This document shows, piece by piece, positions 11,216 through 45,108 of a stretch of DNA of 64,000 nucleotides; position 1 is the stretch's first letter; each line of letters opens with the position of its first letter. The stretch lies in assembly GCA_035765895.1 (NCBI GenBank), contig DASTWL010000089.1, positions 62,001 to 126,000 of the forward strand, written 5' to 3'. Position numbers and translations under genes: made by a program. The notes below the pieces were generated by a model. That model was not told where the DNA came from and ran no database searches. It worked only from the letters and a program-made list of their open reading frames with translations. The stretch comes from Verrucomicrobiia bacterium. GTDB taxonomy: Bacteria > Verrucomicrobiota > Verrucomicrobiia > Limisphaerales > DSYF01.

Positions 11216-12829
11216 TCATTTTTGCGCCAGAATGGAGCGCAGCCAGTCGGCCACGGCGCCGGGCCAGGCGCGTGCGTCCTTTTCGCAGCGCAACCCGTAG
11301 CCGTGCCCGCCCGTGGCGTAGAGCACGAATTGGTTGGGAACCTGCGCCGCGTCCAGCGCCGCGTGATACAGCTTGCTGCCGGCAACAAACGTCGGGTCGT
11401 CCTCGTTATGGATGATCAACGTGGGCGGAATGTCTGCGGAAAGATTCAGGTCGGGGGACAGGTGACCCGCGCCATCGTCCAGGTAAGCCGGGTAAACCAG
11501 CACGGTAAAGTCGGGCCGGCAACTTTGCTCGTCCACCGCGTCAATGACCGGATAGCGGCGCGCACCAAATTGCGTGCTGGCCCTCGCAGCGAGGTTTCCG
11601 CCCGCGGAAAAACCAATGACGCCAAGCCGCCGGGGATCAATGTTCCACTCCGCCGCGCGCGCCCGGGCGAGGCTCAAGGCGCGCTGGACATCCTGCAGCG
11701 CGCCTTCCCGGTTGTGGGGAACACGGTATTTCAAAACCAGCGCGCCCATGCCCAGCGAGTTCAACCAGCTCGCGATCTCGGTGCCCTCCTTGTCCATCAC
11801 CACATACTTATACGCGCCGCCGGGGCAGACAATGAGCGTCGGCGAATGCGGCCGTGGTCCAGGAAAAACCGTCAACGTGGGGTGGCTCACGTTGGTGATG
11901 CGCCGGGCATCGGTTTTTTCCGGCGAGAAAAACGACTCCGGTTCCCCCGCCCCGCGACCGGGCATCCGGCCCGCCGGCCAGACCTCGACCACGGCCACCA
12001 CGGATGCGAGTTGCGATTGATCATCGAGCAGGTGTCGCATCGCCGCGGCATAACGTTCACCAAGCGCCTTGGCGGCCGCGGCGGAGAAATGCAGATGGTC
12101 CCCCTTGTCGCCCAGCCCGGCTGAATCGGCGTAGCCCAAGTCGTCCAGCACCGTGGGAACGTGCTGGAGGGCGGCGCGCACGACGGGCGCATACGGATGT
12201 TCTTTCGGGCTCAGAAATTCTCCCAACTGTCCGACCACAATGGGCAGATGCGGTTGGTCCAAATCCGCCCGCAGGTCCTTGAACATCTGCGTCAGCCGCG
12301 CCTCATAGGTTTTCGCGTTTTCCTCCTGATCGCTGTCCGATTCGCCCTGATGCCAGAGCACGCCCTTGATGACACCCGATTGCGCCGCACTTCGGGCCAG
12401 CGTCAGTGCTCGCTCGTATAGATCGCCGCCTTTGACCCAACGGCGGAGGGCCGTGCCGCCCACCGCACACGGCACGAGGCCGATGGTGAGGTTCGTGTCA
12501 GCGGCGAGCATTTTGAGCGCGAACGGAATCCCCGGTCCGGCACCGGGCTGGATGCGCCCGCGTTGGGGAAAAATTGGATCGTGTGCGACCACCCACCGCC
12601 CCCGCTCATCGAGCGCAAGGACGCGAGGATTATCTAACTGCGACGCCAGCGCGCGGGTGTCCCGGCCGGCCATGTTCGACTGGCCCATCAACAGGTAGAT
12701 GTGAAAGTGCTCCCGGGCCGGCGGCGTAACCACCGCACGGGCGGCATGGTTCGTCCCGGACGGCTCCGCGCACAACGAAGCGCAGCAAACAACGGCAAGC
12801 AAGCCGATGGCAAATGAACAGGTTCTCAT
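11216..12829 (-). CDS. two-domain secreted esterase: SASA domain + alpha/beta hydrolase
   Basis: A 537-residue exported protein (signal peptide about residues 1-21). The N-terminal half is a SASA/SGNH-like carbohydrate esterase with 'LLMGQSNMAGRD' (nucleophile S51) and 'GVLWHQGESDS'. The C-terminal half (about 290-537) is an alpha/beta hydrolase of the dienelactone/esterase type, with 'VCPGGAYKYVVMDKEG', the elbow 'GFSAGGNLA', Asp in 'HNEDDPTF' and His in 'GGHGYGL'. Both halves suggest removal of acetyl or other acyl groups from sugars. Last gene of the GH3-GH31-unknown-GH2 block, 79 bp after the GH2 gene. Both active sites appear intact, so it may be bifunctional. Confidence 0.88.
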   Translation of the reverse strand: MRTCSFAIGLLAVVCCASLCAEPSGTNHAARAVVTPPAREHFHIYLLMGQSNMAGRDTRALASQLDNPRVLALDERGRWVVAHDPIFPQRGRIQPGAGPGIPFALKMLAADTNLTIGLVPCAVGGTALRRWVKGGDLYERALTLARSAAQSGVIKGVLWHQGESDSDQEENAKTYEARLTQMFKDLRADLDQPHLPIVVGQLGEFLSPKEHPYAPVVRAALQHVPTVLDDLGYADSAGLGDKGDHLHFSAAAAKALGERYAAAMRHLLDDQSQLASVVAVVEVWPAGRMPGRGAGEPESFFSPEKTDARRITNVSHPTLTVFPGPRPHSPTLIVCPGGAYKYVVMDKEGTEIASWLNSLGMGALVLKYRVPHNREGALQDVQRALSLARARAAEWNIDPRRLGVIGFSAGGNLAARASTQFGARRYPVIDAVDEQSCRPDFTVLVYPAYLDDGAGHLSPDLNLSADIPPTLIIHNEDDPTFVAGSKLYHAALDAAQVPNQFVLYATGGHGYGLRCEKDARAWPGAVADWLRSILAQK

Positions 12830-12908
12830 GAATGCAGTGGTAAACGGACCGCCGGGCTTTGGCCCCGGCCGGCGCAAATGCGACGCGTGGTTTGCATCAG
12901 GCCACGAC

Positions 12909-15548
12909 TCATTGAAGCCCGTTGCGGCCGGCGCTTTCATCCGGCGCCTCCGCCGACACCTGAACCACCGCGGGATTCAAACCAGAACGGGACGCCGTCA
13001 AAGTAATCACGCCCGGCGTCAGCGTGGAACGGATGGCGACGCGATTGATGCCGCATTCGGTGTCGAGCCAGAGGTGGTTCACAGAATTGGTTTTGCCGCT
13101 GTTGTAACCGCCGCGCCAGATCGCCGGACCAACGAGTTTAAAATCCACCCGCGCCTCGTCGGTCGGACAACGGCAGCCCTGCGCATCCACAACCTCCACG
13201 TCGAAGAACGCAACATCGGAGCCGTCCGCGCGCAGGCCCGCCGGCGAAACGTGCGGGGTGAGCTGCAGCCGCTGCGGCGCGCCGGCGGTTTCGATTTCGT
13301 CCCGCGCGACAATCTTTCCACCCGCCTTCGCCACGGCAGCAATTTGGCCGGGCGCGAATTTAACGTTCGGAAACGCGTAGATAAAGCCGGTGTTGCCCAG
13401 GTTCTTGTCACGCCCCCCGAACGTGTCGGTAAACTCGCATGCGCGGTTGGTGGTGCCGACGCTCCGGCCATTGACGAACAGTTCGACCGCGTCGCAATGG
13501 TTGGCGGCCACGTAAACCGTCTTCACAGTATTCATCGGATAATTCCAGTGGCCGATAAGGTGAATATCGGGCACGGGACTTTGCATCACACGATACACAT
13601 AATACGCCTGCTTGGGGAGGCGCACGGCATCCACCTTGCCGCTGACGCGGCAGACTTCGCTGCTCTCCTGCCGACCGTCGGCGTTCGCATCCGACCAATA
13701 GATCGAGGCGTAGCCCGACCACCTGGCGTGCGCGGGGTCTGCGTTCGTGATGATGTTCCTCACGTAATCGTGATAACGCACCGCCGCGGCCAGGCAGAAC
13801 GTTTCCGAGTTCCAGTGATAGGTGTCATCCGGGCCCGGTTTGAAGCCGAAATGCGGCGGTGAAAAATCATCCCAGAAACGGCGCGCCGCCTCGTCACGAA
13901 AATCCTCGGCCTCGAGCAACGGCGCACGGTCCCGCCGCTGGGCGCTGTAGGCACGGAACATGTCGGCCGGCCCGGTCAGCGCGTCGGTGCGCGGATCCTG
14001 GCCCACCATCACGCCATAGTATTCGGCCACCGGCGTCAGCACGGTGTTGGCAGCGTTGTCGCTGTTGCCGCGATAGCCCATCACGCGGCCGCCGTCCGGA
14101 TCAAACTGCCGCCGCAACGCCACCATTTCCGCCATGTGCTCCGGCGTGATGACGTTGTTGCCCGCCTCCCAGAAAAGAATGCTCGGCGCGTTGCGGAAAT
14201 AGATGATCGCATTGCGCATCACCTCCGTGCGTTGTTCCCACTGGCGCCCGGTCACGTCCTTCTCCTTGTCGCCGGCCGGGCACACCTCAATGATCCCGGC
14301 CCGGTCGCACGCGCGCACGTCCACGGGCTGCGGCGCAATGTGCATCCAGCGAAGGTAATTGGCGTGCGTGCTGCGAATAAGCTGCGCGTCGAAGTCGTGC
14401 ATCCAGTCCGGGTAGGCTTGCCCAAGCCCGGCCCAACTGTTGGCGGAGCGCTGCGCATAACCGGTGAGCCAGACAAACTGGTCGTTCAGATAAACCCCGC
14501 CCGTGCCGGCGCCGCCCTTGAATTCCGTCTTGCGAAAGCCAGTCCGCGTTTTGCACACATCCACCGTTTTTCCAGCCACGGTCAGAATCGTATAAACGTC
14601 GTAAAGGTTCGGCGACGTGTCGCTCCAGAACTTCGCACCCGTCAGCCGGCCGCCGGCCTTGAACACATCCTTTTCGCCGTCCACCAAGTCGGACGTGCCC
14701 CCCGCGAACCGCGCGCACACGTTGCCCTGCGCATCCACCACCACCGCCGTGAGCATGATGGCCTGCGAATCGCCGGACTCGTTGGACACATGCGATTCGA
14801 CGGTGACATCGCATGTCTGGTTCCGGATGTCGAAGTTCGCGGCGTGAATGTAAATGCCGGTTGTCTTGAGATTTTCGTAAAGGGGCAGCGTTTGATAGAC
14901 ACCGCCGGTGAGATGCAGCCACAGGTCACGGTTCAGACCGCCGTAATTTGGATTGAACGCGCGGCCCATCCACTCGAAACCGGTATCCGTCCCCTCTTCC
15001 CGGTAATCATCGCGGTTGTCCACCTTCACCGCGATGACGTTCCCGTCGCGGCCGAAGTGGACGAAGCCCGTCAGGTCGAGTCCGAACGGCGTCACGCCGT
15101 TTTCGGATTGGCCGGCGAATTTGCCGTTCACCCAGAAACGCCCGGCCTGCTTGAGTCCTTCGCATTCGAGGAACACCTTGCCCCGCTGCGCGCCGGTCGG
15201 CAGCGTGAAATGCTTCCGATACCACACGACGCCCGCGAAGGTCCGCCGGTCGCCGCCACTGTGGCTGATGAGGTGCGCGTAAGCATCCACGTCGTTGTAA
15301 GTGTGCGGCGCGGAAACGTCCTCCCACCGGGAATCATCAAAATCGACGCGCGCCGCGTTCGTCAGGTCACCTTTGAAAAATTTCCAGCCGCGGTTGAAGC
15401 TGACGACGACGCGTGGTGAGGCCGGGGGAACGAAGGGGGGCGCTGCGCTCGCCGCGACGGTGACACAAAACGAGAGGGCCAGCAACCAGCCCCGGAACGC
15501 AGCCAGACCAAACCCGGGCCGCAACGGCTCCGCGCCTCGCAAAGTCAT
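12909..15548 (-). CDS. secreted glycoside hydrolase family 2 protein
   Basis: An 879-residue exported protein (hydrophobic segment about 20-36, ending ASAAP). It has the GH2 order: sugar-binding jelly roll ('FNRGWKFFKGD...WEDVSAPHTYND', 'VWYRKHFTLP'), immunoglobulin-like sandwich, TIM barrel, then Ig-like/DUF4982-like C-terminal domains. In the acid/base position of GH2 (normally 'GNE' after a hydrophobic strand) the sequence reads 'ILFWEAGNNVI', so Asn (N465) replaces the usual Glu. A candidate nucleophile region is 'APLLEAEDFRDE'. Beta-galactosidase-like is the closest call but activity is uncertain. ATG at 15548 preferred over a GTG at 15578. It is separated from the upstream gene by about 390 bp. 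Confidence 0.85.
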   Translation of the reverse strand: MTLRGAEPLRPGFGLAAFRGWLLALSFCVTVAASAAPPFVPPASPRVVVSFNRGWKFFKGDLTNAARVDFDDSRWEDVSAPHTYNDVDAYAHLISHSGGDRRTFAGVVWYRKHFTLPTGAQRGKVFLECEGLKQAGRFWVNGKFAGQSENGVTPFGLDLTGFVHFGRDGNVIAVKVDNRDDYREEGTDTGFEWMGRAFNPNYGGLNRDLWLHLTGGVYQTLPLYENLKTTGIYIHAANFDIRNQTCDVTVESHVSNESGDSQAIMLTAVVVDAQGNVCARFAGGTSDLVDGEKDVFKAGGRLTGAKFWSDTSPNLYDVYTILTVAGKTVDVCKTRTGFRKTEFKGGAGTGGVYLNDQFVWLTGYAQRSANSWAGLGQAYPDWMHDFDAQLIRSTHANYLRWMHIAPQPVDVRACDRAGIIEVCPAGDKEKDVTGRQWEQRTEVMRNAIIYFRNAPSILFWEAGNNVITPEHMAEMVALRRQFDPDGGRVMGYRGNSDNAANTVLTPVAEYYGVMVGQDPRTDALTGPADMFRAYSAQRRDRAPLLEAEDFRDEAARRFWDDFSPPHFGFKPGPDDTYHWNSETFCLAAAVRYHDYVRNIITNADPAHARWSGYASIYWSDANADGRQESSEVCRVSGKVDAVRLPKQAYYVYRVMQSPVPDIHLIGHWNYPMNTVKTVYVAANHCDAVELFVNGRSVGTTNRACEFTDTFGGRDKNLGNTGFIYAFPNVKFAPGQIAAVAKAGGKIVARDEIETAGAPQRLQLTPHVSPAGLRADGSDVAFFDVEVVDAQGCRCPTDEARVDFKLVGPAIWRGGYNSGKTNSVNHLWLDTECGINRVAIRSTLTPGVITLTASRSGLNPAVVQVSAEAPDESAGRNGLQ

Positions 15549-15937
15549 TGGGCGTAGATTGAGCACAAGGATTGACACGACCGCAGCTGGATTTCACTCC
15601 CGGATCACTCCCGAGCAGTAGCTCCAAGCCGTGCGCGGGAAGCATAAGTCGGCGGCCGGGCCGTGACCAGCGACATCGCCGGCCGCTGGCGGCTTCGCTT
15701 CAAACGTGAAAACCCGCGATGAGATGGGGACAAGCTGTCATTAAAGCCCGCCGGGCCGGCGGCTTTGTGAGCTGGGAAAAATTGACGAGCGAGTTTGAAC
15801 CGGCCCCAAGTTCACTGACGGACCAACGTGCCGCGAGCGAACGAGGAGTGCTGCCGGTGGGCAATGTGTTCCCCCTGATGGCGCAGGAACTCGAGCCCAG
15901 CCCGCGTTTCAAGACCACTGCCATCCGAAGCACTGGT
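15549..15937. other. intergenic region, no supported gene
   Basis: About 390 bp between the unknown glycosidase-like gene and GH2. Short open frames on both strands have no recognisable protein features. The only structure I see is a G+C-rich hairpin at 15743-15766. The part nearest 15,600 would be the GH2 leader and may hold its promoter. Confidence 0.5.
15743..15766 (-). terminator. G+C-rich hairpin, possible weak terminator
   Basis: AAAGCC-(C)-GCC / GGC-GGCTTT with a GGGCC loop, one bulged base. On the reverse strand it ends in TTT then AATG, so the U tract is short. It lies about 170 bp downstream of the unknown glycosidase-like gene and could mark the end of the GH3-GH31 transcript. Confidence 0.3.
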
Positions 15938-17875
15938 TCACCGTTCGGCCGCCAGCACGCCCGCTTCCGCCGCAAATGCCGCGTAGCTGTGCGGCAGCAA
16001 ACGCACTTTGAAGATTGTCTGCGCGGCGTTTGAACGTCTGCGGCGATGGTCGCCCGCCGGTTGCACGGCGCCGATGAGTTCGCCCGTGGCGAGGTTGCGC
16101 AGCCGGGTGAACTTGCCCGCCACTGCGATGGTCACCTCAACCGGCTCGGAGCGAAAAGACTGCGCGATGAAGGTGTTATTGTCGTAGGCGAACAACGCGA
16201 TCTGGCTTGGGCCATCCACCCGCACCGGGAAACCGGCCATGAGGTAATTCTTCAGTTCGGTTGTCACGTCCGGCGGCAGGCGGTAGAGGTCGTTGAAGTT
16301 GTCAGGCATGGTCCAGACGTAAAGCACGCCTTTGCCGTAGCGTTCCATCAGCAGCAGTGGATACCCGCGGCCATTGGCCAGCGCGCGAATGACCGGCCAG
16401 GCGTCGTTCGTGAGGAAGCGAATGTCTGGGAAAAGAATGTCGCCGTCGGCCGGGCTCCCGAGGCTGGCCCCGTCGCCCGCGCCAAAGCCGCCCAGAAACT
16501 CGCGCGCGGAAATCTTCCGGTCCGTGTAGCGCAGTTCCACGATGTCCTCGATCCCCTTCCCTTGCAGCGCGCGCAGGAGGCCGGAGGTGATCACGACCGT
16601 CTTGCCGGCGCGCAACCGGCCTTTGATCTGTGCGACAACGTCCGGATCAAAACTCGCGGACTCCGTCAACAGCACGGTATCCGCGTTGGTCGGGAATGTC
16701 GGCTGCAGATTAATCGGAATGCCGATCATGCCAAAATAGTTATGCAGGAAATCCTCGCCCACGGCGTGCGGCGGACGATAGCTGGCAATGCCGATGGGGT
16801 CGCCGAGCTTGCCCAGCAACGCGTCCACCTGTTCCAACGAGTAACCCGCGACGCGCGCGATGGTCGGAGCCGCGGCAGACGCGGAAAGATCGTTCCCTGA
16901 TTTCATCACCTCATCGAGGTTGAAACTGGTTGGCAATTTCTCCCACGCCGAGCGGTCGCCCGGAACGATGGGCTGCGTCATGGCCGACCATTCGAACAGC
17001 GTGATTTCGGGCGCCTTCGCGAACAGCGTGTCCCAAAGTTGTTCGGCATAACGATCAATGTAGCGGATGCTGTAAGTGTCCACCCAGCCACCGCCGTTGC
17101 GGCCGGGCTTGATGTTCTCAAAGTAACGAAAGATCTGGTAGCTCTCGTATTGCTGGAGATTCTGGTCCGTGATTTCCGGGTCGCGCGTCTCCGTGCCGGT
17201 GTAAATGCCGTCGAAAAGTTTCGGCTCCTTGTCGAGGTCGTAGCCGGAGCCCGCGAAATGTTCATACCAGTTCGGGAACTTGATCACCATCTTCACCTTC
17301 GGATTCACCGCGCGCGCCGGCTTGAGCAACAGGTTCTCGGCCGCGTCGTTCATCAGGTCGAGACGGAATTGCGTCCAGCTCCGGTCGCCCTTCGCGGCAA
17401 GGTCGGAATCGAACTTCGTCGTGACGAAAAAGAAATCATCCTGAATCACCTCGTCAAAATGCCCGGCCGCGCGCTCGACGGCCCGCTGGATGAAGGCGCG
17501 ATCTTCCGGGTCCGTGTAGCAGAATGACCGGAACTGTCCGGCACCGCCGTCGGACAACGCCATGCCGCCCGCGACCTGAACGCCGCGCTGGGTGAAGAAC
17601 GATTTCACCTGCTCGATCAATTCGTCGCTCGCCAGCGTGCGGTCACGCTGCACTTCCAGGTAAACCTTGTCCACCTTGAGTTGCGCGTGGATGCGCTCCC
17701 AATCCTCCGCCAGCTTTGCCGGATTTTGGAACCCGAGCATGACACTGACCGGGATGTAAATGGCCGTGCTGAAGTTGGTGTATTGACCGGCGCCGGCCGG
17801 CGTCGCGAAACAAACAACCGCCAGCAACAGCGTTGCACAGGCTCGGCGAAGCGACGGTGGGAAAAGTGGTTTCAT
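15938..17875 (-). CDS. secreted glycosidase-like protein of unrecognised family
   Basis: A 645-residue exported protein (signal peptide about 1-28, ...VCFATPAGAG). Residues about 35-420 read like a TIM barrel, with strand-end acidic residues in 'DEVIQDDFFFVTT', 'VKMVIKFPNWYEHF', 'GIYTGTETRDPE' and 'ITLFEWSAM'. Residues about 430-560 resemble a beta-galactosidase-trimerisation/glutamine-amidotransferase-like Rossmann domain ('ADTVLLTESASFDPDVVAQ', 'GKTVVITSGLL'). A beta-rich C-terminal domain follows. It starts 7 bp after the GH31 stop, so it is surely in the same transcript. I cannot assign a GH family. The ATG at 17875 is the only start giving a signal peptide. Confidence 0.75.
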   Translation of the reverse strand: MKPLFPPSLRRACATLLLAVVCFATPAGAGQYTNFSTAIYIPVSVMLGFQNPAKLAEDWERIHAQLKVDKVYLEVQRDRTLASDELIEQVKSFFTQRGVQVAGGMALSDGGAGQFRSFCYTDPEDRAFIQRAVERAAGHFDEVIQDDFFFVTTKFDSDLAAKGDRSWTQFRLDLMNDAAENLLLKPARAVNPKVKMVIKFPNWYEHFAGSGYDLDKEPKLFDGIYTGTETRDPEITDQNLQQYESYQIFRYFENIKPGRNGGGWVDTYSIRYIDRYAEQLWDTLFAKAPEITLFEWSAMTQPIVPGDRSAWEKLPTSFNLDEVMKSGNDLSASAAAPTIARVAGYSLEQVDALLGKLGDPIGIASYRPPHAVGEDFLHNYFGMIGIPINLQPTFPTNADTVLLTESASFDPDVVAQIKGRLRAGKTVVITSGLLRALQGKGIEDIVELRYTDRKISAREFLGGFGAGDGASLGSPADGDILFPDIRFLTNDAWPVIRALANGRGYPLLLMERYGKGVLYVWTMPDNFNDLYRLPPDVTTELKNYLMAGFPVRVDGPSQIALFAYDNNTFIAQSFRSEPVEVTIAVAGKFTRLRNLATGELIGAVQPAGDHRRRRSNAAQTIFKVRLLPHSYAAFAAEAGVLAAER

Positions 17876-17882
17876 GAGCAGA

Positions 17883-20408
17883 TCAGTTTTGAGCGGGCGG
17901 ACGCAGGGCCGCCGCAAGTTTAACAGCGAACGGCTGGTTTGCAGACTTCCACGCATCACCCGACTTGGTGAGCGTGACGGTCTCCAGTTGATTGTCGGCC
18001 GGCAGGCAAACCTGCCCACTGGCCGTGGTCGCCTCCTTGGCAAACACGACGAGTTCCAGCTTCGACCAGTCCATTTGCGTCGTGGACTGCGCGAGCGGCA
18101 ATTGCGGGATCGCCGCGCCGTCGCGCACCATGATGACCGCGCGGACCGGGCCGGCCTCAATCTGCCGCCAGCCGCCCGTGTAGGAATTGCCGCTTTGGTA
18201 ATCAATCCAGTTGCCCGGCGGCAGATACACCGCGCGGCTGCGTTCACCCTCGTGCATCAGCGGCGCGACCAGCATATCCGAGCCAAAGCAAAATTCATCA
18301 TCCACCTGCCACGCGCCGGGATCGTCAGGAAATTCAAGGAACAACGCGCGCAGCATCGGGAATCCGTGTTCGGAGGATGCCTTCGCCTGCGCGTAAATGT
18401 ATGGCATCAACTTGTAGCGCATTTCAACCGTGCGGCGGAATTGATCCATGAACGCCGGGCCGTATTCCCAAGGTTCCTTCGGGGCAGTCCCGTGGCAGCG
18501 TGTGTGCGAACTGAAGATGCCGAACGCGAGCCAGCGCAAATACAAATCCTCGCTCGCCCGCGCCGTGAATCCACCCACGTCATGGCTCCAGAACGTGAAC
18601 CCGCTCAGGCCAAACGACAGTCCGCCGCGCAATTCTGCGGCCATGCCCTGGTCCGTGCTCTCGGCATCGCCGCCCCAATGCAACGGATACCGCTGGCTGC
18701 CGGCCCACGCGCTGCGCGCCCAGATGATGCTCTCACCGGTCGTCTTCTTCGTGATGTCCGCGACGGCTTTGTTGTAGCGCAAGGGAAACAAATTGTGTTC
18801 ATAGAAACCGGAGCGGCCCGACGCAAACAAGCCATCTACGGGCGCGGCCTCGCCGAAGTCCACCTTGATCGCGCCGACACCAAGCTTGAGCAGGTTGGCC
18901 AGCTTGCCCTGATACCACGCGACGGTTTCAGGATTCGAGAAATCCAGCACCGCATCCTCGTAAGGCAGATTTCCTTTCGCGTCGCGCACGACGAGGTTCT
19001 TCTCGACGAGCTCATCGAAGAGCGTGTTCTTCGGAACGAAATACGGCAGTTGCCAGAGCGAGATGTGAAAGCCTTCGTCCTTCAGATCGCTGATCATCTT
19101 GGCCGGATCGGTGAAACGCGACTTCGAGAATTGGTAATCGCAGCGCCAGTCCTTCTCGAACCAGCCGGTGTCGAGATGCAGCACATCACAGGGAATCCTG
19201 TTCTCGCGCAGCTTGTCGGCGACCTCGCGCGTCTGTTTCTCGCTGAAATAGGTGCAACGGCTCATCCACAGCCCGAACGACCACAGCGGCGGCATCGGCG
19301 ATTTGCCGGTCAGCTTCGTGTATTCATCGAGGATGTCCTTGGGCTGACCGAGGAAGACGAACAGATCCAGTTCGTCGTCGCCGATCATCAGCGAATTGAT
19401 GCCGCTGAAGTAGCTGCCGAAGTCGCAGGTCACGGGCGACGAGGTGTGAATGAACATCCCGTAACCACGGCTGCTCATGAAAAACGGAATCGGCTTATAC
19501 ATTTCGCGCGACTGCACGCCGTTCGCGTCGTCGGTCCAAAGCACGATTTTCTGCCCGCGTTTGTCGAAGCCGGTGAAGGATTCGCCGCAACCGAAGATTT
19601 TCTCGCCGGGCGACAGCGTGAACACCGCATCCATGCTGCGCGAGTAATCCGTTGTCCGCCGCACAAACGAGAACGGCAGAATCGGCGTGTAACTCGTCTT
19701 GTTATCTTCGGCGTGATCAGTTTGCGTGAGCAGCTTGCCCGCTGCGTCGCGAATCTCGATGTGCCACGGCTTCTCGATGACCGTCACCGAACCGAATTCG
19801 CTCTTGTAACGATGGCCGTTGGGGAGCTTTTCGTATTTCCACGAGTTGTCCTTCGGCACTGGTCCGGCGAGCATGAGTTCATCGGCGGGCTTGTGAAACT
19901 GCGGCCCGCTGGTGGCGCGGATGCGAATCGTGCGCGGCGAGACGAATTCAATCGAGAACGGCAGTTCCGGATCGGCGGCGTATTCGTTGGCGGGAAACTC
20001 GTTCGGTTTCACCGGCGTGATGACGCCCAGCATGTTGTCAAACGCCTGCCGGGTTTGGTATTCCGCGCGCTGCCAGGAAATCATGCCGGACGCGGTCGCC
20101 GGGTCGAAATGAGTGACCTGATCCGCGAGGTAATAGCTGTTGGCGAAATCGCGGAAATCGCCGCTGACGTCCACAGGCTCGTTCAGCAGGCGAGGGGCAG
20201 GATTTGCGGCAAAGCCGCCAACCGTGGCGAGTAATAGCGCGACGCCGGCGCAAAGTGGCGTAACGCCCGCCCTCACCCTGCCCCTCTCCCCCAAGGAGAG
20301 GGAAAAACCTTTGTAAGCCGCAGTCCTTTCTGAAGATCGTCCGGCCAATCCCCTCGCATCTTCAGAACTGTTTTTGATTTTGTTCCTCACGATAAAATTC
20401 CTTTTCAT
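17883..20408 (-). CDS. secreted GH31 glycosidase (alpha-xylosidase/alpha-glucosidase type)
   Basis: An 841-residue GH31 retaining glycosidase. Nucleophile D517 lies in 'IKVDFGE' and acid/base D581 in 'HWGGDAEST'. '[17 protein letters not shown]' is the wording of YicI-type alpha-xylosidases. It would remove alpha-xylosyl units from xyloglucan oligosaccharides. Its ATG overlaps the GH3 stop (ATGA), implying translational coupling. The first about 45 residues are encoded by an odd segment holding the palindrome at 20282-20302. A GTG at 20276 would give a conventional signal peptide ([20 protein letters not shown]...AA). The annotated start is therefore uncertain. Confidence 0.92.
20282..20302. 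repeat. REP-like palindrome inside the GH31 5' end
   Basis: Perfect 8-bp arms CCCTCTCC / GGAGAGGG with a 5-nt loop, inside a CT-rich stretch. It is read in frame as [13 protein letters not shown] on the reverse strand. The sequence style matches dispersed intergenic palindromes of bacterial genomes. A second hairpin lies at 20329-20366. Confidence 0.65.
20329..20366. repeat. inverted repeat in the GH31 5' end
   Basis: 9-bp perfect arms TCTGAAGAT (20329-20337) and ATCTTCAGA (20358-20366) with a 20-nt loop. It lies between the upstream ATG (20408) and the alternative GTG (20276) of the GH31 gene, so it could be a leader hairpin rather than coding sequence. Confidence 0.6.
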
Positions 20409-22219
20409 TTCCAGGTCAGCCCGTAACCGCGTTGGAAGAGTGGCTTTGTGTCGGGATCGTCGCTGCGCAGGTGCGCGTTGCTGGCGGGCCAGAGGCGCGG
20501 CAGTTTGCCGGTGGGTTTGAAGTCGCCGAACAGGACGTCAGCTACGCCCTGCCCTTCCGTCCCCGGCAGCCATGCGGCGATGAATGCCCGGCTGTTCTCC
20601 AACGCAGGACCCAAAATCAACGGACGGCCCGAAAGCAGAAGGGTCACCACCGGCGCGCCGCCGGCCTTCGCCTTCGCAATCAACGCCACATTATCAGCGG
20701 ACAGATAAAGCCCCGCACGATCGCCGTTCCCCTCCGCGTAAGGCGGTTCGCCGATGACTGCAATCACCGCATCGGCATCCTGCACATCACTCGCATCTGG
20801 CGAAAAGGTCACCTTCGTTTCCGGCGACACCCTGTTGCGAATAGCCGCAAGAATCGTCGTTCCGCCGTGCGTCACATTGCCGTGCCTGCCCTGCCAGTCC
20901 ACCGTCCAGCCACCACACTGCACGCCGAGATCGTCCGCCGCCGACCCCGCCACCACGAGGTGTTTGAGGTCCTTCGCCAGCGGCAACGTGTGCTTCTCGT
21001 TCTTGAGCACCACCAGCGATTCGCGCACGCATTGGCGCGCAATCGCGCGATGTTCTGGCGAACCGATGCTCGCCCTGAGCGCCGGGTCCACTGCGGTGCT
21101 GTCGAACAATCCCATCTCGTATTTGATCCGCAGAATGCGCAGCACGGCGTCGTCAATCCGCGATAGCGGCACCTTCCCTTCCGCCACCAGCTCCTTGAGG
21201 TCCGTGATGAACTCGACGTAGCTGTTCTTTTTGCCCGGCCCGTTCGGAATCATGATCATGTCGAGCCCGGCATTGATCGAGCGTTCGATGCAATGCTTGT
21301 AGTTGTTGGTCTCGATCTGATCAATCGCCGCCCAGTCGGACACGAGGAAACCGCGAAAGCCCAGCTCTCCTTTGAGCACATCGGTCAGAAGATGTTTCTG
21401 CCCGTGCAGTTTCTCGCCGTTCCAACTGTTGTAGGAAACCATGATTGAGCCCACGCCCGCTGCGATGGCCGCGCGATACGGCGGCAAATGGACTCGGCGC
21501 AGCATCGCTTCGTCGCAGATGGTGTTGCCCTGATCATCGCCATTCACGGTTCCGCCGTCGCCGAGGAAATGTTTCGCGCACGCGAGCACAGACGATGGAT
21601 CGGCGGACAGCACTTTACCCTGAAAGCCGATCGTTGCCGCCACCCCGAGTTCGGAAACCAAATTTGGCTCGTCGCCGTAGCCTTCGTAGGTGCGGCCCCA
21701 GCGCGGATCTTGCGGGACGGTGACGCACGGCGCGAAGGCCCAGCGCATCCCGGTGCCGGCGCATTCCTCCGCGGTCACATGCTCGGCCTGCTCGACCAGC
21801 TTGGGATCATGTGTCGCGCCGAGCCCGATGTGATGCGGGAAAACCGTCGCGCCATCCACGTTGTTGTGGCCGTGAACGGCGTCAATGCCGTAAAGGATCG
21901 GAATCTTGAGCCGCGTTTGCAGCGCCTGCGCCTGGAACTCATTGACGAATTTCAGCCAGTCCTGCGCCGTGTTGCCGCTGGCTGGATCAGACGAACCGCC
22001 GCTGAGAACCGAGCCGAGAAAATATTTTTTCACATCGGCCCGGTCCTTCAGCGCCGACGAATCCACCTGCACCATCTGGCCGATTTTTTCCTCGAGCGTC
22101 ATCCGCGACAGCAGCGCGGCGGCGGCGGCTTCGTGTTCGGAAAACTGCGGCGCTCCGTGAGCGTTAATGGCGGAAATCAATACGACGACGGCGGCGGAGA
22201 GGAGCAAGGTTTGATTCAT
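20405..22219 (-). CDS. secreted GH3 beta-glucosidase-type enzyme
   Basis: A 604-residue exported protein (signal peptide about 1-22). The GH3 TIM barrel carries '[16 protein letters not shown]' and the nucleophile D295 in '[10 protein letters not shown]', followed by '[12 protein letters not shown]'. The alpha/beta-sandwich C-terminal domain contains '[18 protein letters not shown]'. It lacks the FnIII-like third domain of BglX. Expected role: release of glucose from beta-glucosides such as cello- or xyloglucan oligosaccharides. First gene of a minus-strand block; the next gene (GH31) overlaps its stop. Confidence 0.94.
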
Positions 22220-31616: not shown

Positions 31617-33200
31617 ATGAAATCAAATCTGTGCCGGTTCGTCCTCACGCTTGCGGTCTGGCTCACCGCCGTTGAATCGTCGCCAGCCGGCAACAACGCC
31701 CCCGTGCGGCTCATCACCGCCGATTTGCAACGAACCAATGGTCCGCTCAACACCATGTTCAAACGTTGTGTCGGCGCCGGCCGCGCGAATGAAGGCCTGC
31801 GCGCCGACTGGCAGCGCCAACTGACAATCGCGCACCGCGAGTGCGGCTTCGAATACATCCGCATGCACGGATTGTTCACCGATGACATGGGGGTTTACCG
31901 GGATTACAACGGCAAGCCGGAATACAACTGGCAATACATTGACGAGTTGTTCGACTTTCTGCACGGCATCGGCATGAAGCCGTTCGTGGAACTGGGCTTC
32001 ATGCCGCAGGGACTGGCCAGCGGTTCCAAGACGATTTTCTGGTGGAAGGGCAATGTGACCCCGCCCAAAGACATGAAGAAGTGGGAGGACTTCATCCGCG
32101 CCTTCACGCTGCATGTGCAGGAACGTTACGGCCACGACGAGGTAAAGACGTGGTATTTCGAGGTCTGGAACGAGCCGAACCTCGATGGCTTCTGGGCGGG
32201 CACGCAACAGCAATATTTCGGTCTCTACGCCACGACGGCCCGCGCCATCAAAAGCGTTTCTCCCGACTACAAGGTCGGCGGCCCGGCCACGGCGGGCTGC
32301 GGCTGGATCAAGGAGTTTCTGAAATTCTGCGAGACCAACCAGTCGCCGGTGGATTTCGTCTCCACGCACACCTACGGCGTGGAAAGCGGTTATCTCGATG
32401 AGACTGCCACGCACGGCACGGCCTTGTCCAAAAATCCAAACTCCATCGTCGGCGAGGTCAAGTGGGTGCGTCAGCTGATCAACGATTCCGCCTTTCCAAA
32501 TCTGGAACTGCACTTCACCGAATGGAGCAGTTCCTACACGCCCGCCGATCCGTTCCACGACAGCTACCACAGCGCGGCCTACATCATTGACAAGCTCAGG
32601 AACTGCGGCGATGCGCCCAATTCCATGTCCTACTGGACCTTCACGGACATCTTTGAAGAGCCCGGCCCGCGTTGGGAAGCGTTCCACGGCGGTTTCGGGT
32701 TGATGAATTATCAGGACATCAAGAAATCGGCGTATTACACGTATCAATTCCTGAACCGCCTCGGCCCGACAGAACTCAAGAGCAACGACCGTTCCTCCTG
32801 GATTTGCACTGACAAAGACGGCGGCGTGCAGGCGTTGGTCTGGGATTTCACCAACACTTTCCCGGGCACGAACATGATCAATCAGGTCTTTTACAAACGC
32901 GATCTGCCCGCGCAGCCGAAAGGCAAAGTCGCACTCAACCTGTCGCATCTGCGCAAAGGCAAATACACGATGGAAGTTTACAAGGTCGGCTATCGCGTCA
33001 ACGATGCCTATGCCACCTACCGCGACCTCGGCGCGCCCAATCAACTCACCAGGGCGCAAGTCGCCGAAATCAAGGCAAGGAACAGTGGCGCCCCATTGGA
33101 AACCCGCACCGTGAAGATTGGCCGCGATGGAAAGTTCACCGACCAATTTGACATCCGCGAAAACGACGTCGTGTTTATCACGCTTAAGCCGCAGCGGTGA
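31617..33200 (+). CDS. secreted GH39 glycosidase (beta-xylosidase type)
   Basis: A 527-residue exported protein (signal peptide about 1-24). The GH39 barrel has acid/base E186 in 'FEVWNEPNLDGFW' and nucleophile E302 in 'LHFTEWSSSY', with 'YIRMHGLFTDDMGVY' near residue 80 and 'DFVSTHTYG' near 247. A C-terminal beta-sandwich follows the barrel. Family members are beta-xylosidases or alpha-L-iduronidases and relatives; the wording here favours beta-xylosidase. It is the only plus-strand glycosidase and shares its upstream region with the sensor kinase. The ATG at 31617 fits the signal peptide; no clear Shine-Dalgarno was seen. Confidence 0.92.
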   Translation: MKSNLCRFVLTLAVWLTAVESSPAGNNAPVRLITADLQRTNGPLNTMFKRCVGAGRANEGLRADWQRQLTIAHRECGFEYIRMHGLFTDDMGVYRDYNGKPEYNWQYIDELFDFLHGIGMKPFVELGFMPQGLASGSKTIFWWKGNVTPPKDMKKWEDFIRAFTLHVQERYGHDEVKTWYFEVWNEPNLDGFWAGTQQQYFGLYATTARAIKSVSPDYKVGGPATAGCGWIKEFLKFCETNQSPVDFVSTHTYGVESGYLDETATHGTALSKNPNSIVGEVKWVRQLINDSAFPNLELHFTEWSSSYTPADPFHDSYHSAAYIIDKLRNCGDAPNSMSYWTFTDIFEEPGPRWEAFHGGFGLMNYQDIKKSAYYTYQFLNRLGPTELKSNDRSSWICTDKDGGVQALVWDFTNTFPGTNMINQVFYKRDLPAQPKGKVALNLSHLRKGKYTMEVYKVGYRVNDAYATYRDLGAPNQLTRAQVAEIKARNSGAPLETRTVKIGRDGKFTDQFDIRENDVVFITLKPQR

Positions 33201-35012: not shown

Positions 35013-37346
35013 TTAATCGGCACTTCCAGCAGCCGGAAGCACTGAAATTTCCGCCGCGCAGGTCCAGCCGCTGTTCCAGATGGCGCGCAGGCTGGTGAAG
35101 CGGAAATAACGGGCGCTGACTGGCGCAAAGCTTACTTCCTGAAGCGACGGGTTGTTCTGAATGTTAGCGAACGAACCGTCGGCGATGGCCGTCGTCCAAA
35201 TCGCGCCGTCAACGCTCGTTTCAAAACGATATTTTTCCACCACGCCATTGAGCACCCCATCCTGACGCGGCAAATACGTGAAGCCGGCGATGCGATTTGT
35301 TTTGCCCATGTCCACGGTGATCGTGTGCGGCTGATGCTGGTCGGCGTTCCAGCGGGTGTGCCAGAACGTGGAAGAGTCGCCGTCAATGGCGTGGGCGGCG
35401 GAGTTGTCCGCCCCGACGGTCTCCTCGCTGTCCACGCTCACCACTTTCCAGCCAATCGACATCAAGCCGGCGAAGACGCGTGAACCAGCGATGCCGAGTT
35501 TGCCGTCGGACAGCAAACTCGCGACGCGCACCGTTACGCGGCGGTCTTGAGGCAGCGCGATGGGCGCGGCGTAAACCGTCGAGTGAATCGTCGGCACGCT
35601 GCCGTCCACAGTGTAAACCATTTTGTGACCCGCCAGATTACTGAGGCTCACCTCGCCATTGGCGCTGCGGTCGGAAATCGTCGGCGGCAGCGTGTTGACA
35701 GATTGCTTGAAGAAGCCGATTTCGGCGAGCGTCGGTTCGAGGCGCGCGCCGGTGATGCGGACGCGCACTTGATCAGTCGTAACCGGCGTTTTCAAGCGGA
35801 TGAGCCGCCGATGGCCGACGGTGGTGAGTTGATCGGACGAAACGTGTTCGGGCGCAGTCCAGCCGGAACCGTCGCGGGTTTCGATGATAAACGATTCAAT
35901 CCGCTGCCCGCGATCGTCCACCGCTTCCTGCAATGAGACGACGTCGAACGTCACCGGCTTCGGCAACGTGAGCGTCACCGTGCCGTTGGTGTTGCCCGGC
36001 GCGGCTTCCCACCAGGTGTCGAGATTGCCATCCAAAACGAGCGACGGCCGGTTCGCGGCGTTGAAACTTTCCGCCGTGACCTTGCCGTCCTTCGCCAGAT
36101 CGGTGGCTAAGGTTTCATTAATGATCTGCGCCGCTTTGCTTAACGCATCCAGTTGATTATCTGGCACGAGTCCGCGTTTATCGGGCGACAGGTTCAGGAG
36201 GAGATTTCCATTGCGCCCGACGGAGGTGTAGAAGATGTCCACCAGTTGCGTCACCGTGCGCGGCTGTTTGTTGCGCGCCCAGAACCACGCGTTGTTCTGA
36301 AGCATGGTGGCGTTCACTTCCGCCGGATACCACCAGAGATGCGAACCGGGCTTGAGCTTCGCGCGACCGCCGAGATCGCCGCCGGTCCAATCCGGCCAGG
36401 TGAAGTTCTCGGGCGCAGCCGGCAACGGAATCACGCTCCATTCCGTGGCGCGCCCAACCCCGCTTTCATTGCCCACCCAGCGCACGTCCGGTCCTTTGCC
36501 CATGATCACGGCGTTCGGTTGCAGATGCCGGATCAAGTCATACCACGCGTTGTAATCGTAAGTCTCGTGAACGCTCGGGTCGGGATTTGCGCCGTCGAAC
36601 CACACCTCGCCGATCGGCCCGTATTCCGTCAGCAACTCATAAAGCTGATTCAGGAAGTAACGATTGTAGTCGTCCACGACGTAAGTGTAATTCGTGAAGC
36701 CCGGCGTCGGCGCGCGGCCCTTCGATGGATTGCTCTTGAAGCTCGCCGGATCGGTGGGGATGACCGAGGGCACGTTGCTGCTGCCGTTGCCGTAGTAGCC
36801 GGCCGGATTTTTCGGATTTGTCCGAAGCTGATACAGGTCGGCCGGCGAAAGGTAAACCGCCAGCTTCACACCGCGTGTGCGCGCGGCATCCGCCACTTCG
36901 CGCACTTCGTCGCCCTTGCCGTCGCGCCACGGACTCGCCGCCACCGAATGATCCGTGTATCGCGACGGCCAATAGCAAAAGCCATCGTGATGTTTGCAAA
37001 CGAGCACGATCATCTTGCCGCCAAAATTCGTCACGGCATCCAGCCACTGGTTCGCGTCCAGCGCGGTCGGATTAAAAATGGACGCGTCTTCGCGGCCCGT
37101 GCCCCATTCGACTTCGTTGAACGTGTTCACGCCGAAATGGAGAAAGAACGTCCGCTCCAGCCGCATCCATTCCGTTTGATTCGGACGCGGCAGAACATGC
37201 GCCGCCTTGTCAGCGATGACGTCGGGCGAATCGCCTTCAGCGATCACCTGCATCGTCGAATACGGGATTGGCTCCGCTACGACGCCGAGGCTCATGAGCG
37301 AGCAGCCCAGTGCCAAAAAGCTCCGCCTCATTCTCTTGGGCATCAT
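35013..37346 (-). CDS. secreted GH29 alpha-L-fucosidase with discoidin-like domains
   Basis: A 777-residue exported protein (signal peptide about 1-24). GH29 landmarks: 'FFLHFGVNTFNEVEWGTG' (67-84), 'IVLVCKHHDGFCYWPS' (113-128) and nucleophile D251 in 'GEVWFDGANPD'. 'GNGGNLLLNLSPD'-like ending of the barrel follows. Two F5/8 type C (CBM32-like) domains are suggested: one at about 425-560 ('DVVSLQEAVDDRGQRIESF') and one at the C-terminus (about 640-777; 'HAIDGDSSTFWHTRW'). It releases alpha-L-fucose from glycans. It begins 4 bp after the GH97 stop. Confidence 0.93.
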   Translation of the reverse strand: MMPKRMRRSFLALGCSLMSLGVVAEPIPYSTMQVIAEGDSPDVIADKAAHVLPRPNQTEWMRLERTFFLHFGVNTFNEVEWGTGREDASIFNPTALDANQWLDAVTNFGGKMIVLVCKHHDGFCYWPSRYTDHSVAASPWRDGKGDEVREVADAARTRGVKLAVYLSPADLYQLRTNPKNPAGYYGNGSSNVPSVIPTDPASFKSNPSKGRAPTPGFTNYTYVVDDYNRYFLNQLYELLTEYGPIGEVWFDGANPDPSVHETYDYNAWYDLIRHLQPNAVIMGKGPDVRWVGNESGVGRATEWSVIPLPAAPENFTWPDWTGGDLGGRAKLKPGSHLWWYPAEVNATMLQNNAWFWARNKQPRTVTQLVDIFYTSVGRNGNLLLNLSPDKRGLVPDNQLDALSKAAQIINETLATDLAKDGKVTAESFNAANRPSLVLDGNLDTWWEAAPGNTNGTVTLTLPKPVTFDVVSLQEAVDDRGQRIESFIIETRDGSGWTAPEHVSSDQLTTVGHRRLIRLKTPVTTDQVRVRITGARLEPTLAEIGFFKQSVNTLPPTISDRSANGEVSLSNLAGHKMVYTVDGSVPTIHSTVYAAPIALPQDRRVTVRVASLLSDGKLGIAGSRVFAGLMSIGWKVVSVDSEETVGADNSAAHAIDGDSSTFWHTRWNADQHQPHTITVDMGKTNRIAGFTYLPRQDGVLNGVVEKYRFETSVDGAIWTTAIADGSFANIQNNPSLQEVSFAPVSARYFRFTSLRAIWNSGWTCAAEISVLPAAGSAD

Positions 37347-42519: not shown

Positions 42520-45108
42520 TCAGGAACAAATCCTGAGTGCCAGAGCGATCTTGCCGTCAAACTTCTCCGGCAGCGAGACGTGCAGCCCGCTTGCGTCGTG
42601 CGTGAACTTGAGCTTCCCGCCGCCGAGCAACCGGACGCTGCGGACCCTGCCCGGCCAGCTTTCTGCTTTTGTTGCCAGCGATTTGACGGTGACCTTCCCG
42701 TCTTTCGGAATTTCCAGCACAATGGCGTAAAGTGATTTTCCGTCTTTCGACTGCGTGAAACGGATGTCTTCCGCCGTGAACGGTTTGTCGGACACGTCTT
42801 TCTGGCCATCGAACGTGCCCTTCTCGGCGACCTCGGTGGAAGGGCCTTCCCCGTATACTTTCCAGGGGCGGGTCGCGTAGATGGCCTCGCCGTTCACCTT
42901 CAACCACGCGCCGATTTGTTTGACGATTTCAATTTCCTGTTCGTCGGGCTGGCCGTCGCGGCGCAACGGCACGCTCAGCATCAGATTGCCGTTCTTGCTG
43001 ACGATGTCGGCGAGCATCCGCACGACCGACGCGGCGGGCGTGTAGCCTTTCCGTTCGTAAATTCCGCGGTCGTAATGCCACGAGCCGATGCAGGTGTCGG
43101 TCTGCCACGGCTGCGGCAAAATGCCGTTTGCCCGCCCGCGCTCAAGGTCATACACCAGCGCGCGGCGCTGCAATTCGTTCAACCATTTGCCGTTCATCAC
43201 GGCTTCGGTGCGGCCGTGTTTGTCGAGGCGTGTGTTGTAAAAATGCGCGGCGAGCTTCAGGCCGATTTCATCGGTGACGCCATGAAACGGCAGCACAGTG
43301 TCGTCGAAATAAATCTGATCCGGATGATAATCGTCCCACAGCTGCTGCGTGCGCTTGAAGAATTTCTCCATGTAGGCGGCGTCAGGAATGCTGCTGCCCT
43401 TCATGCCATCCCATTCCCATTGCAACGTGCTGCCCGGCGCGTGACTTTGCGCATACAGATCCTGCGGATCGAGGCCTTCCCACCATTGGCCCTTGCCGTC
43501 GGCCTTCGTCAGTTTGCCGTCGTAAGGCACGCCGGCCAGCGGGCCCCTCTTGTCCGCACCCTGGGCAACTTCATACCACGACCACGCGCGCGACGCGTGA
43601 ACACTCACACCGAAGCGCAGGCCGATCTTGCGGGCCGCCTTTGCCCAACCGCCGATCAAATCCTTGTGCGGCCCGATGGCGACGGAATTCCAGGGCTGAT
43701 ACTTGGAATTGAAATTGTCGAAGTTGTCGTGGTGGCTGGCCAGCGCCATGAAATACTTCGCGCCATTTTCCTTGTAGAACTTCAGCAGCTTGTCGGGGTC
43801 GAAGTGCTCCGCCTTCCAGACGTGGATCACATCCTTGAAGCCGTTGGTCGACGGGTGGCCGTATTCCTTGAGGTGCAAATTGTATTGCCAGCCGCCCTCC
43901 TGATACATGCCGCGCGCATACCAGTCGCCGTGCTCGGGCTGACATTGCGGTCCCCAATGCGCCCAGATGCCGAACTTCGCGTCACGAAACCATTCGGGTG
44001 TCTGGTAATTCGTCAGCGAATTCCAGTCCGGCTTGAACGGTCCGGCAGCGATGGGCGGCAGTTGCAGCGAATCGGCTTCCGCCGGTGCCTGGAAAATGCG
44101 TTGCGCGAAATGGTAGAGATTGTTCGCCCACGTCCCACGGTCGTGGGGTTGGTCATCCACGTTCCAGACATGCGGCACGTCATGCTGTTTCAGATAGACG
44201 TGGACGCGTTGGGAAATGTTGATGAGGCCGTCCTTGTTGCCGCAGGAAAGGTAAAGCAGCTTCAACTGCCTCCGCGCCGCGGCCGGATCGGGCACGAGTT
44301 CGACGGGCGGTTTGGTGTTCGGTGCGGAGGAAAATCCGCCGACCCACGCGAACTTGTCGAGGTGACCCAGCCCGAAATTGAGCGACTGGCCGCCGCCCAT
44401 TGAAAGCCCGGCAATCGCGCGCTGCTCGCGATTCGTGGCCGCGGAATATTTCGCCTGCATGGCAGGAATCAAACAGCCGATCAGATCGCGCTCGAACTTC
44501 GCAAATCCTTCCGCGTTTTCCGGCGAGAAGGTTTTGTCCGGTGGCGGCACGCTGTCGTCCGAAAGCGCGCGGCCGTTCGGCATCACGACGATCATCGGCA
44601 CCGCCTTCCCGTCGGTGATGAGATTGTCCACAATCGCATCAGCATGGACGTAGCCGCTCCATTCCCATTCGTTGCCGCCAATGCCGTGCAACAGACAGAG
44701 GACGGGATATTTCCGACCGTCCGAGTAGTCCGGCGGAAGGTAAACGACCGCCTTCCGCTTCCCGCCGGTGACGGTGGAATCGTATTCAAACACTTCGGTG
44801 TGACCTGCGATTTTGCCGGTGCGGGGCTTGTCGAAACCAGCGGGCGCATCCGGAAAGGCGCGCACGTCATCCACCGCAAGCACGACGGGGCGGCCGAAGT
44901 TGGCGCGGGCGCGTCCGGACGAAACCTGTTCCGGCTTTTTCTGCGCCAGCAATGCACCGGGCGAAGCTGCAAGCAGCAGGAGCACGGTCAGGCAAAAAAC
45001 CTGCACAAGATGCGACCGATCGCAGGCCGGACTGCGGCGTTCACGCCGCCGGGCCGAAACCATGGCAGTCTGGATGGATGAATTTGTCATAGAAATTGTG
45101 ATCCGCAT
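42520..45108 (-). CDS. bifunctional secreted CE1-type esterase fused to GH29 alpha-L-fucosidase
   Basis: An 862-residue exported protein. After a long basic leader (about 1-33) and signal peptide (about 34-55), residues about 95-340 form a CE1/feruloyl-esterase-like alpha/beta hydrolase: 'YPVLCLLHGIGGNEWEW', nucleophile S236 in 'AGLSMGGG', probable acid D293 and H322 in 'DQPHDRGTW'. Residues about 358-862 are a GH29 domain: 'DAKFGIWAHWGPQCQPEHGDWYARGMY', 'ALASHHDNFDNFNSKY' and nucleophile candidate D602 in 'PDQIYFDDTVLP'. Both catalytic sets look intact, so deacylation and defucosylation may be coupled. The leader contains the 45034-45049 palindrome. 9 bp after GH5. Confidence 0.92.
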   Translation of the reverse strand: MRITISMTNSSIQTAMVSARRRERRSPACDRSHLVQVFCLTVLLLLAASPGALLAQKKPEQVSSGRARANFGRPVVLAVDDVRAFPDAPAGFDKPRTGKIAGHTEVFEYDSTVTGGKRKAVVYLPPDYSDGRKYPVLCLLHGIGGNEWEWSGYVHADAIVDNLITDGKAVPMIVVMPNGRALSDDSVPPPDKTFSPENAEGFAKFERDLIGCLIPAMQAKYSAATNREQRAIAGLSMGGGQSLNFGLGHLDKFAWVGGFSSAPNTKPPVELVPDPAAARRQLKLLYLSCGNKDGLINISQRVHVYLKQHDVPHVWNVDDQPHDRGTWANNLYHFAQRIFQAPAEADSLQLPPIAAGPFKPDWNSLTNYQTPEWFRDAKFGIWAHWGPQCQPEHGDWYARGMYQEGGWQYNLHLKEYGHPSTNGFKDVIHVWKAEHFDPDKLLKFYKENGAKYFMALASHHDNFDNFNSKYQPWNSVAIGPHKDLIGGWAKAARKIGLRFGVSVHASRAWSWYEVAQGADKRGPLAGVPYDGKLTKADGKGQWWEGLDPQDLYAQSHAPGSTLQWEWDGMKGSSIPDAAYMEKFFKRTQQLWDDYHPDQIYFDDTVLPFHGVTDEIGLKLAAHFYNTRLDKHGRTEAVMNGKWLNELQRRALVYDLERGRANGILPQPWQTDTCIGSWHYDRGIYERKGYTPAASVVRMLADIVSKNGNLMLSVPLRRDGQPDEQEIEIVKQIGAWLKVNGEAIYATRPWKVYGEGPSTEVAEKGTFDGQKDVSDKPFTAEDIRFTQSKDGKSLYAIVLEIPKDGKVTVKSLATKAESWPGRVRSVRLLGGGKLKFTHDASGLHVSLPEKFDGKIALALRICS
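45034..45049. repeat. 16-bp palindrome shared with the GH97 5' element
   Basis: GCGGCGTTCACGCCGC, 7-bp arms and 2-nt centre, located in the leader-coding part of the CE1-GH29 gene. The identical 16-mer, in the opposite orientation, is at 39518-39533. It is flanked by GGCC at both sides. Confidence 0.75.

Follow-up and report, generated by a model that had tools for sequence, protein, structure and literature searches.

The window, a stretch of 64,000 nucleotides from a Verrucomicrobiia bacterium analysed here at its full length, encodes a secreted protein of 645 residues (the target) whose family is a founding candidate for a new family of glycoside hydrolases (GHs), as judged against Pfam, NCBIfam and the sequences of the PDB. 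The gene is conserved in distant bacteria, a set of residues in its predicted barrel is invariant, and in relatives it is linked to genes of xyloglucan-degrading enzymes; its fold is that of a model, and the target is very probably an active glycosidase. Taken as a whole, our reading, which we hold to be plausible if somewhat short of an even chance, is that of a secreted exo-acting GH of an undescribed family that would remove a side-chain sugar from xyloglucan, most likely as a retaining alpha-L-fucosidase using D146 and E229.

An earlier note, made from the sequence of the window, had described a secreted protein of this length lying 7 bp from a GH31 gene, and both points were confirmed. 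The target ORF lies on the minus strand, the note having given no strand; it was read as opening with a classical signal peptide (MKPLFPPSLRRACATLLLAVVCFATPAGAG) and lies exactly 7 bp from the GH31 stop codon. On inspection the reading frame was found to stay open upstream, into GH31, and a start at 17875 is one option, preferred because the signal peptide follows it directly. The target belongs to a minus-strand run with the order GH3, GH31, target, GH2 and esterase (Table 1), in which the GH31 resembles YicI, an alpha-xylosidase. GH2 comes after the target, across a gap of 359 bp in which a promoter and terminator scan found neither element. No endoxyloglucanase adjoins the target in the window itself. 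The esterase is a single ORF in which a SASA acetylesterase domain is fused to a BD-FAE-like alpha/beta-hydrolase domain, possibly a bifunctional deacetylase acting on xyloglucan. Elsewhere in the window, ~14 kb from the target, a GH39 gene (31617-33197, plus strand) shared 81% identity with the GH39 located immediately after the target at the homologous locus L010. The window also holds three genes of the alpha-L-fucosidase family GH29 (~36129-37085, 42886-44049 and 53674-54873 (-)), out of ten in the genome, which suggests a large region concerned with fucose-related glycans, and fucose-isomerase-like matches in this genome scored near the curated cut-off.

Table 1. Features of the target and its cluster (positions in the window), with the gene orders found at homologous loci.
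Feature	Position	Strand	Basis
Target ORF, candidate new GH family	15938..17875	(-)	645 codons, ORF call
Putative catalytic barrel, residues 31-345	16841..17785	(-)	Separate model of residues 30-345, pLDDT 88.7
Rossmann domain, GH42-type middle domain, residues ~341-550	16226..16855	(-)	DSSP of model; whole-length match to GH42/GH164/GH151; profile match of region to GHL6
C-terminal beta-sandwich, residues 551-645	15941..16225	(-)	DSSP of model
D146-D147 codons, end of strand 4, DDFFF motif	17435..17440	(-)	Invariant 70/70 and 34/34
E229 codon, end of strand 6, GTETR motif	17189..17191	(-)	Invariant 70/70 and 34/34
D266 codon, end of strand 7, GGWVD motif	17078..17080	(-)	Invariant 70/70 and 34/34
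GH3	20405..22219	(-)	Pfam; GH3 stop overlaps GH31 start (ATGA)
GH31, YicI-like (alpha-xylosidase type)	17883..20408	(-)	Pfam; top PDB matches 5f7c and YicI
GH2, beta-galactosidase type	12909..15578	(-)	Pfam; top PDB match 6hpd, E 3.6e-162
Two-domain esterase, SASA acetylesterase and alpha/beta hydrolase	11216..12940	(-)	Pfam
L001: GH31-GH2-GH74-target			
L002: GH31-GH74-paralogue-GH74-target-GH2			
L005: GH31-GH74-paralogue-GH2-target			
L010: GH31-GH74-target-GH39-GH3			
L011: GH31-GH3-GH74-target			
L012: GH74-target			
L013, L014: GH31-target-GH39			
L015, L061: GH31-target-GH2			
L030, L003: GH31-target			
L056 (Bacteroidales): GH31-GH9-target-GH51			

Searches with the target protein gave no match in Pfam (E<=1) or NCBIfam and none among PDB sequences, where one chance hit (E 0.66) was returned. 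A core set of 70 members, comprising the window protein and 69 homologues, was used as a profile against the PDB without a convincing match, and the members searched singly against Pfam and NCBIfam gave only weak and scattered matches, which were dismissed as such: DUF5988 (Pfam, E 0.002, 11 members), GtaA_6_Hairpin (Pfam, E 6.6e-4, one member) and the NCBIfam matches of single homologues. A literature search for a described family, a characterised member or a new xyloglucan GH found none. Homologues were nevertheless present at 79 loci, mostly in MAGs, with 41-69% identity, which is far beyond chance. They occur in Verrucomicrobiota, Acidobacteriota, Bacteroidota (including Tannerellaceae), Planctomycetota, Ignavibacteria and Proteobacteria, and the family was carried by 7 of 240 sampled Verrucomicrobiota genomes, by 8 of 395 from the phylum to which a Bacteroidales genome (G308) belongs and by 14 of 297 in that of a Granulicella genome (G309); a plasmid collection contained no homologue of the target. 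A widened set of 34 widely spread members was also assembled. The distant relatives were L085 (544 aa), L086 and L087 (~390 aa) and L168-L171 (618-642 aa). L086 (1237-2421) and L087 (1234-2391) have no Rossmann domain, suggesting that the barrel can work alone, and one of them adjoins a gene that reads, by its sequence, as alpha-L-rhamnosidase-like. L085 (1390-3021) has no signal peptide and lies next to what reads as a GntR/LacI-type regulator and to an MFS-like transporter, probably a cytoplasmic gene set for oligosaccharide use. Tandem paralogues of the target were seen within L002 (4952-6838), L005 (5459-6886) and L029 (8045-9730), the L002 and L005 copies placing near the Bacteroidota/Ignavibacteria branch; a CKCxxC motif follows DDFFF in the L002 copy and in most Bacteroidota members and is absent from the window protein.

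Gene neighbourhoods were analysed by tblastn of the cluster proteins over all loci, because longest-ORF calls in GC-rich MAGs sometimes fall on the wrong strand (as in L061, 12173-14707). Within Limisphaerales, and also in a single Bacteroidales genome, the partners of the target were YicI-like GH31, GH74 endoxyloglucanase, GH2, GH3, GH39, GH9 or GH51 (Table 1). In the tree, the clade of the window has 19 rows, and 12 of them carry GH31 and/or GH74 beside or near the target; some of the other rows end at a contig edge. The GH74 assignment was firm, its matches being xyloglucan hydrolases in the PDB (best 7kn8, E 1.5e-211), and the GH31 of the relatives' clusters was also YicI-like. Judged by their sequences, the co-localised alpha-xylosidase, endoxyloglucanase, galactosidase and glucosidase constitute a xyloglucan utilisation locus, as seen in L001 and L010. 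The GH31 and GH74 genes next to homologues thus support the link to xyloglucan proposed in the earlier note, more strongly than the window alone showed, and xyloglucan or its oligosaccharide is probably the substrate in the GH31-linked clade, although it may differ elsewhere in the family. The fixed place between GH31 and GH2 claimed from the window held only in part, as linkage to GH31 is frequent among Limisphaerales, but the order of the genes is variable and no such linkage was seen in Acidobacteriota. In Acidobacteriaceae the neighbours were lactonase-like propellers and an acyltransferase instead of enzymes for xyloglucan; tandem genes of ~400-455 aa lie upstream of the target in L035, L036, L038 and L043, those of L038 being lactonase-like beta-propellers. 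GH9 accompanied the target in L055, L068 and L070, and GH9-type proteins with an N-terminal extension of ~265 aa lie directly upstream of it in these Bacteroidota (L055, 274-2802; L068, 470-2953; L070, 7458-9941). SusD was found near the target in L057 and L074.

The AlphaFold model of the target (mean pLDDT 89.5, pTM 0.89) contained both the TIM-barrel-like pattern and the Rossmann domain noticed beforehand, the barrel strands being residues 36-41, 70-77, 100-106, 142-145, 195-200, 223-228, 260-266 and 290-294. A Foldseek search with the whole model gave GH164 as the best match (E 6e-20) followed by GH42 (E 1e-19). VIA-align of the whole model gave Cwp19 (Z 22.8, 275 residues, 3.3 A), GH42 5e9a (Z 21.4, 520 residues, 4.2 A), GH164 (Z 20.4, 517 residues, 3.6 A), PgaB (Z 19.8, 272 residues, 3.7 A) and GH151 6tvk (Z 18.7, 526 residues, 4.5 A), while the barrel modelled alone gave Z scores of 21.2 for Cwp19, 19.7 for GH42, 19.3 for GH164, 18.6 for PgaB and 18.0 for GH151. 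The nearest folds are thus GH42, GH164 and GH151 over the whole length, and Cwp19/GHL10 and PgaB/GH153 for the barrel; among these relatives the modelled structure alone does not decide. The candidacy as a new GH family draws on the lack of Pfam, NCBIfam and PDB sequence matches beyond the weak, scattered ones, on the glycosidase fold returned by structure prediction and on the invariant acid cluster. It does not extend to the fold, which in the model is of the already known GH42/GH151/GH164 type, whereas the family is not known.

Four barrel acids, D146, D147, E229 and D266, were invariant in the 70 core members, and the residues invariant in both the core and the 34 widened members were D146, D147, K199, P201, W203, E229, R231, G262, W264 and D266. 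K199 ends strand 5 of the modelled barrel, and E74, on strand 2, never varies in the core family, most distant members having Asp or Glu there. Thus, of the acidic motifs singled out from the sequence, DEVIQDDFFF (D146, D147) and GTETRDPE (E229) were retained in 70/70 members, but E295 of ITLFEWSAM is Glu in only 23/70; E295 and E234 (conserved in 8/70) were ruled out as catalytic, since residues so poorly conserved are unlikely to serve. Invariance over very distant members is the pattern of a catalytic site. Activity is known for no member of the family, and the target could be envisaged as a relative that has lost catalysis and binds glycans at the surface or in the periplasm, but this is very improbable, as the four acids, the Lys and the Arg of the barrel are unchanged even in the members of ~390 aa that lack the Rossmann domain.

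The GH42 beta-galactosidases share the three-domain plan of the target (Z 21 over ~520 residues), and the GH164 beta-mannosidase Bs164 (6t5o) was the top Foldseek match of the whole model. The catalytic residues of GH164 are glutamates. As these top whole-length matches are clan GH-A-type exo-enzymes, the target could instead remove a different side-chain sugar of xyloglucan, as a beta-galactosidase, alpha-L-arabinosidase, alpha-L-galactosidase or galacturonosidase, using a GH-A-like pair in which D147 on strand 4 is the acid/base and D266 on strand 7 the nucleophile. Invariant D147 and D266 occupy the strand-4 and strand-7 positions of the two GH42 glutamates (PMC5765458). The clusters of L010 and L013 showed no GH2, so that the target could equally serve as the beta-galactosidase there, and GH51 is also present in L056. 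However, GH-A enzymes have Glu at both positions where the target has Asp; strand 4 of GH42 carries Asn-Glu and its strand 7 Glu (PMC5765458), against Asp-Asp and Asp in the target. PF02449 (GH42) was unmatched in all 70 members (E<=1), hhalign of the barrel alone against GH42 gave a probability of 1-14%, and a GH2 beta-galactosidase is already present in the window. Similarly, GH164 was only 8-10% identical, differs from the Asp-Asp of the target at strand 4, and 6t5o was not matched by the family profile (A1) at E<=10. The D147/D266 pair is kept as a serious alternative, somewhat less likely than the preferred reading.

The barrels closest to that of the target were those of GHL10 (Cwp19, 5oq2/5oq3), the best solved match (Z 21.2), and GH153 (PgaB). 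The strand-4 position is Asp-Asp in GHL10, His-Asp in GH153 and Asp-Asp in the target, whose DDFFF motif, with its invariant DD, aligns with DDYFY of GHL10 as an Asp-Asp-aromatic ending of strand 4. Since the Asp at the position of D147 is the key residue in both Cwp19 and PgaB, an endo-acting or lytic enzyme of GHL10/GH153 type can be considered, in which D147 would be the single key acid and the backbone, not a terminal sugar, would be cleaved. Such an activity is improbable: the three-domain plan of GH42/GH151, missing from the single-barrel GHL10 and GH153 proteins that have no Rossmann/beta-sandwich arrangement, is otherwise known from exo-enzymes, the clusters already contain the endo-enzymes GH74 or GH9, and E229 and D266 would be left without an explained role. 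Cwp19 has Gly at the strand-7 position. Furthermore, the profile probability of the barrel alone to GHL10 was only 5-22%, PF02638 (GHL10) matched no member, and PgaB in the PDB was not matched by the family profile at E<=10.

The preferred D146/E229 pairing comes from GH151 (ALfuk2, PDB 6tvk), part of Pfam GHL6 (PF14871). GH151 has a three-domain plan with the nucleophile D154 ending strand 4 and the acid/base E235 ending strand 6 (PMC10154630); an alignment read with this paper places these at residues 183 and 264 of the 6tvk chain. The target has the same barrel, Rossmann and C-terminal beta domains with matching boundaries, and an Asp and a Glu ending strands 4 and 6, 83 residues apart against 81 in GH151. 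It differs in its low identity (10-11%), in the second Asp, D147, beside the nucleophile position within DDFFF, and in the absence from the window protein of the RQVHLDFHTS and CHHG motifs conserved in 6tvk and in GH151 proper. Two sets of GHL6 sequences were made within the same bacterial class: GH151 proper (A5, matching 6tvk at E 9e-225) and a wider set (A6, matching 6tvk at E 2e-144 and also GH42 and GH29). Profile A1 did not match 6tvk (E<=10), hhalign of A1 against A5 gave a probability of 6.6 in the Rossmann and C-terminal part only, and the barrel alone gave ~1% against GH151 proper; thus, by sequence, the target is not a member of GH151. Against A6 (the GHL6/GH151 superfamily), the widened family gave 90% over 516 columns and the family with more distant members 85%, and the barrel alone gave 77% against GHL6, the best among the families tested, although the barrel-only values vary with the member set. 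As the hhalign E-values are those of a single comparison, the GHL6 link is a lead, not proof, and GHL6 has strong links of its own to GH29, GH42 and GHL10. Aligning globally with hhalign against GHL10, GH42, GH151 and GH29 was uninformative. In the local profile alignment D146 was aligned with the strand-4 Asp of GHL6, the reported nucleophile in 6tvk, while the invariant E229 lies at the end of strand 6 but aligns weakly with the GH151/GHL6 Glu. The D146/E229 pairing is drawn from topology and a weak profile alignment.

We infer that the secreted target would be an enzyme that works alongside the GH31 alpha-xylosidase, the GH2 beta-galactosidase, the GH3 beta-glucosidase and the acetylesterase, trimming a side-chain sugar from xyloglucan oligosaccharides. 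By analogy with GH151, it would be a retaining enzyme in which D146, ending strand 4, acts as the nucleophile and E229, ending strand 6, as the acid/base, the -1 pocket being shaped by D147, K199, W203, Y204, R231, W264 and D266, and its Rossmann domain may build an oligomer as in GH42/GH151. If so, a family that occurs in a few percent of the Bacteroidota, Acidobacteriota and Verrucomicrobiota genomes sampled, and that no family model yet covers, would gain a predicted role in debranching xyloglucan, with its catalytic residues named. The family would then bridge the GH42/GH151/GHL6 and GHL10/GH153 barrels and allow hemicellulose use to be better annotated in bacteria of peat and soil.

The breakdown of xyloglucan oligosaccharides requires fucose, galactose, arabinose, xylose, acetate and the glucose backbone all to be removed. 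The clusters provide GH31, GH2, GH3 and sometimes GH51, with the esterase in the window, while L053 was the only locus with a GH29 close to the target, and GH95 did not appear in a tally covering the 25 most frequent families among the cluster genes; the fucosidase slot thus often appears unfilled. This, with the GH151-like plan, makes alpha-L-fucosidase the leading guess, to be held tentatively, as a fucosidase is not obviously missing given the GH29 gene in L053 and the ten in the window's genome. Mfuc3, a GHL6/GH151 enzyme, is a proven fucosidase (PMC4723247). No direct sequence link to GH29 was found (hhalign barrel probability <1%; no family member matched PF01120), and membership by sequence in GH42, GHL10 or GH29 was in each case tested and not found. 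Whether the target founds a new CAZy family seems to us evenly balanced: with Asp-Asp on strand 4, an invariant Lys on strand 5, Glu on strand 6 and Asp on strand 7, its active site would be unlike any of the characterised families, and, widespread among Verrucomicrobiota and Acidobacteriota of soil and peat and among Bacteroidota of the gut, it might offer an alternative to the GH95/GH29 fucosidases in xyloglucan breakdown, or act on a side-chain linkage without a known enzyme. The xyloglucan locus of Xanthomonas combines GH74, GH31, GH35, a GH95 fucosidase and CE20 (PMC8245568). Its GH95 enzyme would be the functional analogue of the target, filling the same slot beside GH74, GH31, beta-galactosidase and acetylesterase, but with an (alpha/alpha)6 barrel whose fold is unrelated to that of the target.
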